39,424 nucleotides of DNA from positions 1 through 39,424 of the IMG/VR virus record IMGVR_UViG_3300003323_000468. One strand, 5' to 3'. A program made the translations under genes and the position numbers. A model generated the notes under the pieces. The model was given only the letters and a program-made list of their open reading frames with translations, was not told the DNA's origin and made no database searches. The DNA is from a virus. The first letter of the stretch is position 1, and every line of letters begins with the position of its first letter. Shown here piece after piece: positions 19,427 through 29,813 of the stretch.

Positions 19427-19611
19427 CGCTGCATGTCCTCACGGATGGCCTGACCGGCTTGATCACCCTGGGCACGATGCATGTCGACGCGCGGACATTC
19501 CGTCCACCCGTAGAACGTCTCGCCGCACCAAAGCGCATGGTCAAAAATGGCGGCGTGCTCCTGAAAGAAGCCGACGCGCACGAACGCTTCAAGCGGATCA
19601 GGTGAGGTCAT
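19423..19611 (-). CDS. Small hypothetical protein after terS
   Basis: A 62-residue protein from ATG 19611, overlapping terS by 14 bp. It has aromatic and His/Cys residues (FFQEHAAIFDHALWCGETFYGW). It is co-transcribed with terS. I recognise no family. Confidence 0.55.
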   Translation of the reverse strand: MTSPDPLEAFVRVGFFQEHAAIFDHALWCGETFYGWTECPRVDMHRAQGDQAGQAIREDMQR

Positions 19612-20077
19612 CGTCGGTCACATTCACGATGCGATAGGTGGTCGTCGTGTCCATCGTGCCGGTGAGCTGCACGCGCGTGGGGAGCTGGCCGAGCTCTTCG
19701 GCCGCCTGCTTGAGCGCCTGCATCTGCGCGCGCACGTCGATCTCAGTGATCATGTTGCCCTCGTCATCGTACGCCACACGACCGGCGTTGGTCACCTTCG
19801 GTGCAGGTACACCCGCCTTCTCGACGATCTCCTGAAGCAATGCCAGGCGATGCGCCTTGTCGGCGATCAGCAAGCCGGCGAACTGATCGTCCGCATCCTT
19901 GGCGACAGCCGCGATCTCGTCGGCGTGCTTCTTCGCGAACTGCGAGATAGCAGCCTGCGTCACGTTGTAACGCTTCGCGATCTCCGTGTACGTCACGTCG
20001 GGCATCTTGAGTGCCAGCTCGCGGATGAGCTTCCGGCGAACGAGTCCGCCCAGCTTGCCGCTGTCGGGGCGTGGCAT
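19598..20077 (-). CDS. terS: Terminase small subunit (candidate)
   Basis: A 159-residue protein from ATG 20077 with a GGAGAGGAG ribosome site. Residues ~15-50 form a helix-turn-helix (TYTEIAKRYNVTQAAISQFAKKHADEIAA). A helical middle and a short C-terminal strand region (TTYRIVNVTDDD) follow, the expected design for a DNA-recognition small terminase whose C-terminus meets the large subunit. It lies close upstream of terL, though separated by three small genes. It could instead be another HTH protein. Confidence 0.7.
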   Translation of the reverse strand: MPRPDSGKLGGLVRRKLIRELALKMPDVTYTEIAKRYNVTQAAISQFAKKHADEIAAVAKDADDQFAGLLIADKAHRLALLQEIVEKAGVPAPKVTNAGRVAYDDEGNMITEIDVRAQMQALKQAAEELGQLPTRVQLTGTMDTTTTYRIVNVTDDDLT

Positions 20078-26178: not shown

Positions 26179-26586
26179 CTAGCGACTCGTGTTGATGCTG
26201 ATCGAGCCGAGCCGGTCGTTCCAGCCGCTCGGCATGGACGCGGCCGGCCCGGGCGGCTCCTGCGTGAAGCTCGTGCCGCTGCACGAATTGTTGTCGAAGA
26301 AGTGCACGTAATAGCCGGCGACGGCGAAGTTCATGTCGTACGAACTGACCGAGTTGTCGAAGGTACCGCCGACGGCGAATTTCCAGCAGTGCCCAGGCGC
26401 CTGATAGATCGTGCCCGAGTCGTACTGCGTGAACGACCCGCCGTAGAGGCTATTCGTCCAAATGCACATCTGGGCGGGTCCGCACTGCGAGAGCGAGGCC
26501 TGCGCCGGCGCGGTCGCCGTGATGACCGCTCCGGCGGCGAAGAAGGAGACGAGGACCGCGAGCGCGGCCAGGAATCGGTTTCTCAT
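26179..26586 (-). CDS. Secreted peptidase-inhibitor I36 / crystallin-like protein
   Basis: A 135-residue protein from ATG 26586. Residues 1-30 are a signal peptide ending in AQA. The mature part has four cysteines and repeated aromatic/Gly motifs (CIWTNSLYGGSFTQYDSG, NDRLGSISI) typical of the beta/gamma-crystallin-like I36 family, whose known Streptomyces members inhibit metalloproteases. In a phage this is a cargo gene, and it may be expressed from a carrier cell. The start is leaderless. It ends next to the operator of the following operon. Confidence 0.75.
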   Translation of the reverse strand: MRNRFLAALAVLVSFFAAGAVITATAPAQASLSQCGPAQMCIWTNSLYGGSFTQYDSGTIYQAPGHCWKFAVGGTFDNSVSSYDMNFAVAGYYVHFFDNNSCSGTSFTQEPPGPAASMPSGWNDRLGSISINTSR

Positions 26587-26612: not shown

Positions 26613-26929
26613 CTGTCCGCCTGTCCCGCTGCTGTCCCGCTGCTGTCCCGCTGCTGTCCCGCTCAGAGGTAAATCAGTGGGACAGGGTATGAGCTGCGGA
26701 AACAGGTACCTGTCCCGCCTGTCCCACTGATTCCGGCCCTATGTGGTCACGGATGAAGCCCCTCAAAAAAACAAGCCCTTCCCGGACCCCTTATTTTTTC
26801 CTCTTCGATTCTTCTTATCTGAATCTCAAGTTCAGCGGGACAGCGGGACAAACATGCTGTGACCTGCGAAAATCAGTGGGACAGTCAGCGGGACAGCAGC
26901 GGGACAGCAGCGGGACAGCAGCGGGACAG
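26613..26929. other. Candidate replication origin: inverted arrays of 11-bp iterons around an AT-rich core
   Basis: Left array: CTGTCCCGCT at 26621, 26632, 26643 and 26654, spaced exactly 11 bp. Right array in inverse orientation: AGCGGGACAG at 26887, 26898, 26909 and 26920, again 11 bp apart. Further copies or variants lie at 26613, 26676 (inverted), 26710, 26719, 26834, 26842 and 26875. AATCAGTGGGACAG occurs at 26672 and 26871, and its exact inverse is at 26719-26732. Between the arrays, about 26760-26830 is A/T-rich with runs of A and T, a likely unwinding element. The primase-helicase gene is next door, so an initiator-binding origin is the simplest reading. No gene is visible in 26587-27010. 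Confidence 0.7.
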
Positions 26930-27010: not shown

Positions 27011-29062
27011 CTACGTGGGAGGTACCTGTCCATACGGGTGAAGTGTCCGCACCCAGAGCGACGCGCCCGATTCGTCCACTTGCGGCACGATGCCGTATAC
27101 GTACCGCGCCCGCACTCCGCCGAGCCGCTCCCGCTTGATCGTCAGACCGGCCGAAATGAGCCCGGCGCTGAACTTGTCCCGGGCAAGGGGATGCTCGATG
27201 CCGGCCTGACGTGCCCACGCCGTGTAGACCGGATGCAGCTCGTCGAGCGGGACGGGAACGGTCTCGGTGTCGGGGAAGGCACACAGGTCGTCGAGGAAGC
27301 CCTGTACGGGGGACTGCTGCCGGCGAATCTCCGCCGTCAGTTCCTCGCTCGTCTGTGGGACCGTGAAGCGCCCGTTCGCGTTGAGCCGTTCGAGGCCAGC
27401 CAAGGCCCAGTTGAGGATGCCGGGCAACTCCTCGAGCAGCTTCGTCTTGACCGCGGGGATCTCGCGCCCGTAGAAGCTGCCGGGGAATTGAATGTTGATC
27501 AGCCGGCCGGCGAGAGCGCCGGAAGCGTCGGTGAACTTCGGCATGTCGTTGCCCATGATCATGAAGCGCACGCCGAGCTTGCCGTGCCACACGTCGCGGT
27601 TCTTGCGGTTCACGTCACGCGCGTCGTTGCCGCTGATCTTCTTGACGATCTCGACCGCCTCGGCGATGTCGCGAAAACTCCACGAGATGTCCGAGAAGGT
27701 GGCCAGGGTCTTGCCGAGCAGCGGCGCCTCACCGAACGTCCCGACGAGACTGGGCATGCTCGGGGCCGCGCAGTTCTCCGGCCCGACGAGCGCGTCGAGC
27801 ACGGTCGAGATGGTGCCCTTGCCAGAGCGGCGCCGGCCGACCAGGTTCGCGATCTTCTCGAGGTCGGTCCGGCCGCTGACGATGTAACCGAACCACTCCT
27901 GTAGGAACGTCTGCGCGTCGAGTGGCAGCACGTCGTTGAGGAACCACTGCCACGTCGGCGCCGTGGCGGACGGGTCGAAGTCGAACGGCAGCGATTGTAG
28001 GTTGAACCGTTCCGGCGTGTGCGGCAGCAACTGACGCGCGTTCACGTCGTACACGCCGTTGCGGCAGGCCACCTGCGCCGGACTGTCGTCCGACTCGGCC
28101 GCCGAGTCGCGATAGAGCACGCCGCGCGACAGGGCGTGACTAAGGCTGCCGATCTTCGTCTCGGTCGGCCGCCACGGCGACAGGCCTTTGTCGTCGGCCA
28201 GCTCGTACAGCGCGCCCTCGGTCTGGCGGTACAGCCAGTTGTCGACCGCCTCGGGGGCCCAGGGGCGGTAGCGCGTGCCGTCGTGCAGGTAGAAGTCCCC
28301 GCGCCACCACCGCGCCGGCCGCTCGAGCCGCGGGGTCAGGCTGCGCGCGACCGCTATCGGGTCGTGCGGGGGCGGCAAGAGCAGTCCGTTCTCACTCGCC
28401 GAGGATACGGCCGATTCGTGCCGCTCGTGCCGCGCCTTGAGCGCCGCCTCCTCGGCGGCCTGCTTGCGTTCGCGCTCGTCGGCCTTGAGCAGCTCGGTGA
28501 ATTCGGTCAGGCCGAGGTCAGTTAGGCCGCTCTTGCGGCTGAGCGCGTCACGGGCGGCGCCCTGCTGCGCTTTGTCCCACGCGGCTATCTCCGGGATCAG
28601 GCGCCGCACCGCATCGGCGCGCTGCTCTTTTGGGAGGCTCCCGACGTGCGCCACCATCTCGTCGAGCCGCGCCCGGGTGACCGCCGCAGCCTGATCGCGC
28701 TCCTCTTGCCGGCGCTGCTCGACGAGCTCGAAGAAGCCGGCCGGCATCTCGACGACGGTCGCGAGGTCGTGCTCGCAGTACTGCTGCGGCATGGTGTTCT
28801 TCGCCGCGGCGAGCTCGATCGCGCCGACGAGCAACCGGTGCCATTCGCCGGACGCGATCCGATCGGGGCCGACCGCCTCGGCGAAGACACGTGATATGTC
28901 CTCAACCGCCTGGCGCGCGCCGTAATGACCCTCGCCGCCGAGCGCGACCAGCGCCCGCACCGCGTCACGGGCGGTCTCGTGCCGACTGGCCGCCTCGGTA
29001 CGCAGCGTATCCACAGCCTGTGTCCACACGTTGTGGACGGGCGGGCACCACTGCCGCGTCAT
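27011..29062 (-). CDS. D5-like primase-helicase (SF3 helicase domain)
   Basis: A 683-residue protein from ATG 29062 (ATGA with the prim-pol gene). Residues 1-230 are helical and charged. About 255-400 is a D5_N-like domain (WLYRQTEGALYELAD, ACRNGVYDVNARQLLPHTPE). The SF3 helicase follows with Walker A GRRRSGKGT (~409-417), FSDISW as the B motif and a GNDMP segment for motif C. A winged-helix-like C-terminus ends the protein. With the prim-pol this makes a primase-helicase pair for origin melting. The iteron origin directly follows the gene. Confidence 0.88.
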   Translation of the reverse strand: MTRQWCPPVHNVWTQAVDTLRTEAASRHETARDAVRALVALGGEGHYGARQAVEDISRVFAEAVGPDRIASGEWHRLLVGAIELAAAKNTMPQQYCEHDLATVVEMPAGFFELVEQRRQEERDQAAAVTRARLDEMVAHVGSLPKEQRADAVRRLIPEIAAWDKAQQGAARDALSRKSGLTDLGLTEFTELLKADERERKQAAEEAALKARHERHESAVSSASENGLLLPPPHDPIAVARSLTPRLERPARWWRGDFYLHDGTRYRPWAPEAVDNWLYRQTEGALYELADDKGLSPWRPTETKIGSLSHALSRGVLYRDSAAESDDSPAQVACRNGVYDVNARQLLPHTPERFNLQSLPFDFDPSATAPTWQWFLNDVLPLDAQTFLQEWFGYIVSGRTDLEKIANLVGRRRSGKGTISTVLDALVGPENCAAPSMPSLVGTFGEAPLLGKTLATFSDISWSFRDIAEAVEIVKKISGNDARDVNRKNRDVWHGKLGVRFMIMGNDMPKFTDASGALAGRLINIQFPGSFYGREIPAVKTKLLEELPGILNWALAGLERLNANGRFTVPQTSEELTAEIRRQQSPVQGFLDDLCAFPDTETVPVPLDELHPVYTAWARQAGIEHPLARDKFSAGLISAGLTIKRERLGGVRARYVYGIVPQVDESGASLWVRTLHPYGQVPPT

Positions 29063-29760
29063 CGCAGGCCGTCCCACCACTGCGCGTACTGCTCGCTGCC
29101 GAGGGTCGCCTTGTCTACGCGCTCGTACGGCAGCGCGAGTCCCTCGATCCAGCGCACGGGGAGCGCGGGCAGATCTTGCGGGCGCGGTTCAACGGTGTCC
29201 AACTGACCCGATCGGGGGACAAGAAGATGTTCGCGCAAAGTTGAAGGATTCTCGTGTCTCCACCGGTACTCGGCGCCGGCCGCCTCAGGATTGATGCTCG
29301 GCCAGACGACGGCATAGCGGTGACCAGGCTGGATGATCTCGATGAACTTGCCCGCCTCGCCCGGCCAGTTGATGACGCCGGCGCGCTCGTGCGGGATGCG
29401 GTAGAAGCGGATGCCGGACGGGGCCGGCCGCGCGCTGCTGACCCAGGTGGGCGGGAGCGGGCCGAACTTCGCCTCGAGCTGCGCGAGGGTGTCGGCGCCG
29501 GTCTTGTCGCGGTAGTGGTCCACGTCGAGGCCGATGACGCCGGGTGGCATGCGCAGACCGATATTGCGATCGCCGTGCGTCTCGGTCCACGCGTGCACGT
29601 CGCCGGCCGAGGGGTACGGCGCGCTGTGACCGGTCCATCCGCTCGGGGGCGGGAACTTCTGCGCCGGGCCGTTGCCGAGCGGGAGCGGGTACCAGCCCGC
29701 CTCGCGGTAGATGTGGGCAGCTCGCGCGTACGGGCCACTGTATGTAGTATCGGGAGTCAA
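29059..29760 (-). CDS. Bifunctional primase/polymerase (prim-pol)
   Basis: About 233 residues from TTG 29760, with AAGGAAGGAG 7 nt upstream. A GTG at 29811 would add 17 residues but lies at the base of a stable hairpin. GLDVDH carries the metal-binding DxD (Asp79, Asp81). SSARPAPSGIRFYRIP and IEIIQPGHRYAVVWPSINP are the conserved strands of prim-pol domains. The helicase partner is encoded separately by the next gene. It probably makes primers, and may extend them. Confidence 0.85.
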   Translation of the reverse strand: MTPDTTYSGPYARAAHIYREAGWYPLPLGNGPAQKFPPPSGWTGHSAPYPSAGDVHAWTETHGDRNIGLRMPPGVIGLDVDHYRDKTGADTLAQLEAKFGPLPPTWVSSARPAPSGIRFYRIPHERAGVINWPGEAGKFIEIIQPGHRYAVVWPSINPEAAGAEYRWRHENPSTLREHLLVPRSGQLDTVEPRPQDLPALPVRWIEGLALPYERVDKATLGSEQYAQWWDGLR

Positions 29761-29813
29761 GTTCGACTCCTTCCTTCTCGGTTGGGACTCGGGCGTCTCT
29801 CCCAGAGACACAG

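Follow-up and report, generated by a model that had tools for sequence, protein, structure and literature searches.

Inverted iterons flank an AT-rich core beside a D5-like helicase gene

The window, that is the whole stretch of DNA analysed, is an IMG/VR virus record of 39,424 bp with a 24-bp direct repeat at its termini, consistent with a circular molecule. An iteron search of the whole genome found one array only. It lies between the stop codon of a D5-like helicase gene and the start of a gene for a small secreted protein, both on the same strand. The locus contains the following features.

26621-26664, minus strand: left outer iteron block, four head-to-tail copies of CAGCGGGACAG, period 11
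26675-26685, plus strand: one variant iteron, CAGTGGGACAG, oriented towards the left block and within a 15-bp inverted pair
26690-26702, plus strand: left constant box, TGAGCTGCGGAAA
26711-26729, minus strand: left inner iteron pair, TGTCCCGC at 26711 and TGTCCCAC at 26720 (plus-strand letters), 9 bp apart
26730-26832, no strand: AT-rich core, containing A7 and T6 runs and proposed to unwind
26833-26851, plus strand: right inner iteron pair GCGGGACA, copies at 26835 and 26843, 8 bp apart
26860-26872, plus strand: right constant box, TGACCTGCGAAAA
26874-26929, plus strand: right outer iteron block, five copies (one CAGTGGGACAG, four CAGCGGGACAG), period 11-12
27011-29065, minus strand: D5-like SF3 helicase (D5_N, DUF5906), proposed initiator, stop codon 81 bp from the array
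27080-27298, minus strand: helicase residues 590-662, the C-terminal winged-helix region proposed to read the iterons
29059-29811, minus strand: archaeo-eukaryotic Prim-Pol (PF09250), encoded separately, its stop codon overlapping the start codon of the helicase gene (ATGA)

With at most one mismatch allowed, 13 iterons were found in the whole window, all at 26621-26929 (309 bp), compared with 1.72 expected and a maximum of 6 in 100 shuffles. The exact 11-mer occurs eight times genome-wide, always within the array. The left run (26621-26663) consists of 3.9 copies of CTGTCCCGCTG with period 11 and 100% identity, and a degenerate fifth copy of this block, CTGTCCGCC, stands at 26613. The right run (26886-26929) consists of four copies of CAGCGGGACAG, with a CAGTGGGACAG copy ahead at 26874. 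The arms, 26621-26663 and 26887-26929, are 43 nt each and 100% complementary with 223 nt between them, confirming an earlier note on this DNA that described two runs of four 11-bp repeats facing each other some 220 bp apart. The 15-bp inverted pair it reported (26672-26686 against 26718-26732) is exact, with 100% complementarity, and the A- and T-runs it saw in the middle are the A7 and T6 runs of the core, where AT content (roughly at 26740-26835) is 0.53-0.57 against 0.35 genome-wide. Both halves run from outer iterons spaced 11-12 bp, through a constant box and an inner pair spaced 8-9 bp, to the AT-rich core in the middle. The proposed 11-bp spacing holds for the outer runs only and fails for the inner copies, which form the closer pairs. 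Further single and variant copies are present between the runs as described, but a two-copy box that is not an iteron had been missed. DnaA-like boxes were absent at the array.

The array was also correctly placed next to the primase-helicase and prim-pol genes, the latter lying directly upstream of the helicase. Prim-Pol and helicase overlap as ATGA in the window (29059-29080) and are a single fused protein in the close relatives L009-L012. On the other side of the origin region, 26179-26586 (minus strand) encodes a small secreted peptidase-inhibitor I36/crystallin-like protein; in locus L022 a similar-looking secreted protein, at about 8110, starts at the same place relative to the origin. 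The rest of the genome carries siphophage-like structural genes, endonuclease VII, a RusA-like resolvase, an exonuclease and a DEAD/ResIII helicase.

We checked cumulative GC skew over the circular unit, as the earlier note had suggested. After detrending, the skew was low on a plateau from 25 kb, lowest at 29.2 kb and highest near 12 kb; its amplitude exceeded that of 500-bp block permutations (p = 0.0002). The minimum and plateau agree with an origin near 27 kb but are no proof of one: the maximum does not lie opposite the array on the circle, and fourfold sites give a weak signal.

The array is retained in relatives but its word changes

The seven closest helicase relatives found (45-70% identity) lie in viral contigs and two Micromonospora genomes. 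According to the earlier note, an origin would be refuted if close relatives had the replication genes but no array. All seven have an inverted array 3' of the helicase. It had also proposed searching relatives for the same 11-mer; each of the seven arrays is spelled with a different word from that of the window (CCGGGACA; ACCGGGACA with ACCGGGCC; ACCGGGCA; AACCGGGC; GACCCGGGCA; ACCCTGGCA). Two circular plasmids, from Streptomyces virginiae (CCCTGAACA) and Pseudonocardia broussonetiae (CAGGCGGGGCC), also carry an array. The S. virginiae iteron (L036:6520-6800) and the type 1 iteron of phage P4, GGTGAACA, have TGAACA in common.

Helicase loci were collected by a profile search (67 contigs) and whole-genome searches. 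A location scan, blind to words and gene position, then covered up to 8 kb around each of 74 non-redundant helicases. An inverted 8-mer array was found in 59 of the 74 loci. In 49 of these 59 the best array was centred between -100 and +1000 bp from the helicase stop, where 9.6 were expected. In shuffled sequence an array appeared in 8 of 222 tries and in none of the other 214. A mirrored array had been thought unusual for an actinophage; it is instead the common layout of this replicon type. At five loci (L043, L050, L054, L058 and L060) the array falls within the helicase coding sequence, at its 3' end and some 250 bp short of the stop codon; these may be likened to the lambda origin, which lies inside gene O.

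By exact 8-mers, 15 of the 74 loci had no array, including those of Streptomyces phages Yara, Dryad and Wentworth; most of the 15 are remote relatives, at no more than about 35% identity, or offer little flanking sequence. In the same scan no mirrored array was found 3' of the D5 helicase gene in proteobacterial phages (Alteromonas, Shewanella, Proteus, Klebsiella and Vibrio) or in a Bradyrhizobium plasmid. The layout is therefore mainly actinobacterial, as far as tested. Seven other, unrelated phages with an exact match to the 22-mer CAGCGGGACAGCAGCGGGACAG were set aside, as there the word lies inside a lambda-O-like initiator gene, which is another replicon type. In L013-L019 (e.g. L019:4656-4810 and L016:3554-3705) the iterons within the lambda-O-like gene encode the peptide RDSSGTAAGQQRD. 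The occurrence of CAGCGGGACAGCAGCGGGACAG in two replicon types reflects either convergence or a shared word.

Partition, operator and recombination sites can be short-repeat arrays in intergenic DNA, and the array might thus be a partition centromere, an operator array or a cluster of site-specific recombination arms and not an origin. We consider this extremely improbable. The scanned proteins of the window included no integrase, ParA/B or other partition protein, and the attachment and partition readings were rejected on this ground. The gene downstream of the array varies among loci while the array is retained, and none of these functions would explain the AT-rich core or the coupling to the helicase. 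The origin that the earlier note called probable stands as the best-supported reading, with the array kept in all of the closest relatives; activity itself we infer.

Iteron orientation and inner pairs are shared, long complementarity is not

Geometry was compared in 35 loci with a clear centre, each set in helicase orientation. Words left of the centre were on the minus strand in 180 of 217 cases and words right of it on the plus strand in 147 of 174. Spacing between the two innermost copies was 8-10 bp in 53 of 70 half-origins (9 bp being commonest), and outer copies were mostly 11-12 bp apart. Between the innermost copies of the two halves the median gap was 91 bp. In the core, mean AT content was 0.55-0.59, up from about 0.33. 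In L009, L010, L012, L026 and L027 a further short conserved stretch, resembling GAGCACGATAGGGAA, stands ahead of the first right iteron, to the right of the AT core; it is not clear in the window.

These data bear on whether recognition depends chiefly on the structure of a long cruciform or stem-loop, as proposed for the Sulfolobus plasmid pRN1 and by the authors of the work on the Streptomyces plasmid pWTY27. Such a reading fits the 43-nt perfect arms of the window, the 100-nt stem-loop that pRN1 requires 3' of its AEP-SF3-winged-helix gene and the 105-bp inverted repeat protected by pWTY27 RepA. However, iteron orientation and inner pairs are conserved and long complementarity is not, because the longest complementary arms vary from 14 to 55 nt among loci and iteron spacing often differs between halves. 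A long stem-loop was accordingly rejected as the conserved feature, and recognition by structure is very unlikely.

A constant box separates outer and inner iterons

Between the outer and inner iterons lies a box with the consensus TCTGA[CG]C[TA]GCGGAAAC, or in extended form TCTGA[CG]C[TA]GC[GA][GA]AAAC. Unlike the iterons, it is the same across lineages. The words GCAGGTCA/TGACCTGC were present in 25 of 55 origin regions, against 1.1 expected and a shuffled maximum of 11 for any word (all 8-mers). With at most one mismatch, the 8-bp core was found at 58-105 bp from the centre, on the left in 34 of 35 loci and on the right in 27 of 35, usually mirrored; these counts are descriptive, since the distance window was picked after the extended box had been seen. 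The window genome has only two full matches, 26690-26702 and 26860-26872, and these are in the same orientation.

The constant box is the newest element of the layout. Tentatively, and at somewhat less than even odds, recognition may occur at two levels, with the winged helix reading iterons that differ by lineage and a second, conserved factor reading the invariant box and positioning two hexamers. This factor could be an actinobacterial host protein or an invariant part of the helicase or Prim-Pol. If the box is read in this way, it would be, to our knowledge, the first such element described in the origin of an SF3-helicase replicon.

Iteron similarity covaries with the helicase winged helix

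One layout with a different word in each lineage allows the DNA-reading part of the helicase to be located. We rank-correlated iteron similarity with protein similarity by helicase segment in 32 loci. The winged-helix segment (590-662) gave r = 0.52, and a partial r of 0.43 once the other segments were removed (p = 0.001). The putative recognition helix and wing (residues 622-660) gave r = 0.57 and a partial r of 0.50 (p = 0.001). Partial r for D5_N, both halves of the ATPase domain and the linker ranged only from -0.17 to 0.08. Among pairs below 50% identity the winged-helix partial r was 0.35. Shared ancestry can inflate such covariation, and the ATPase control and the subset below 50% identity reduce this effect but do not remove it. 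As iteron similarity tracks the winged-helix segment alone among the segments, this segment is pointed to as the iteron reader.

An AlphaFold model built from window and locus sequences (pLDDT 87.5) arranges the C-terminal helices and two strands as a winged helix (H586-594, H607-620, H629-638, E642-648 and E651-657). The closest solved structure is the SaPI5 primase-helicase (7ola/7om0, Z about 30; best match 29.9), with the 7om0 alignment reaching residue 676; poxvirus and ASFV D5-type helicases are also near. Covariation, fold and precedent lead us to infer that origin binding is done by the helicase itself. The earlier note had found the initiator not obvious, with the primase-helicase among its candidates; covariation now points to the C-terminal winged helix of the helicase.

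The array could also be an origin whose initiator is another phage or host protein, such as a small DNA-binding neighbour, with the helicase loaded secondarily. Many iteron origins use a separate Rep, another protein may read the constant box, and the small protein encoded at 19598-20077 has weak DNA-binding and sigma-r4-like matches. Nevertheless, iteron identity follows the helicase winged helix specifically, and neighbours vary among loci while helicase and array stay together, the two plasmids included. We regard a separate initiator as quite improbable. It is highly likely that the array is the double-stranded replication origin of the phage and is recognised by its own D5/SF3 helicase.

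Comparison with known origins

The closest known system is the Streptomyces theta plasmid pWTY27, which has a prim-pol (repB) and a 522-aa RepA; a non-coding region of 300 bp with iterons follows immediately 3' of repA (PMC3583192). This region contains five copies of GTGGGAAC and five near-complement copies, and is essential for replication (PMC3583192). Gel shift and footprint assays showed RepA binding to it, and replication is bidirectional; the authors described RepA as hypothetical and the site as a possible stem-loop (PMC3583192). By its published description, pWTY27 matches the window in gene order and in the placement of its inverted 8-bp repeats 3' of rep, with the difference that it is a plasmid and the window a phage. 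RepA may be homologous to the D5 family, and the S. virginiae plasmid, with its 523-aa D5 helicase, is likely a pWTY27 relative.

In SaPI Rep and SCCmec Cch2, the C-terminal domain binds iterons directly 3' of its own gene and two hexamers are proposed (PMC7581432). Both resemble the window in combining a D5-type helicase with iterons directly 3' (PMC7581432), and SaPI5 is also the best structural match. They differ in belonging to Firmicute elements, and Cch2 has three 5-nt direct iterons that are not mirrored; the passages on these origins mention no constant box (PMC7581432).

Like the window, phage P4 has an AT-rich region next to its iterons, which are 8 bp long (GGTGAACA) and spaced 9-11 bp. 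Its crr lies immediately 3' of the alpha gene, and alpha binds the ori and crr repeats through a winged helix. In P4, however, ori and crr are separate and the repeats are not mirror-ordered, whereas the window has one array; the P4 primase is of the TOPRIM type and fused to the helicase, whereas that of the window is an AEP Prim-Pol (PF09250) encoded separately. The pRN1 protein joins AEP, SF3 and winged-helix parts, and an essential origin lies just 3' of its gene (PMC4234260). That origin is a 100-nt stem-loop without iterons, which the window has.

The window shows three features of a self-loading SF3/D5 origin: an array 3' of the gene, an AT-rich core, and a D5_N/SF3 core with a C-terminal winged helix. 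The array is thus probably a self-loading D5-helicase origin, new in its strict mirror geometry and invariant box.

A proposed mechanism and its implications

In line with the covariation observed, the C-terminal winged helices of several helicase subunits would bind the iterons in each half. Judging by the symmetry and by SaPI Rep and Cch2, the mirrored halves would place two opposite-facing hexamers on either side of the AT-rich core. ATP hydrolysis would then melt the core, and both rings would load and travel outward. Prim-Pol would prime, and replication of the circular genome would be bidirectional. The constant box would act as a second, lineage-independent element between outer and inner iterons, and this unexplained box hints at a missing factor.

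A single phage array has thus opened onto a family of some 50 natural origins in which the geometry is fixed and the words change. Covariation across this family allows the DNA-reading part of a D5 helicase to be located. Both the recognition code of D5/SF3 initiators and the placement of two opposed rings become testable by winged-helix and iteron swaps, and the family offers compact origins for actinobacterial laboratory vectors.
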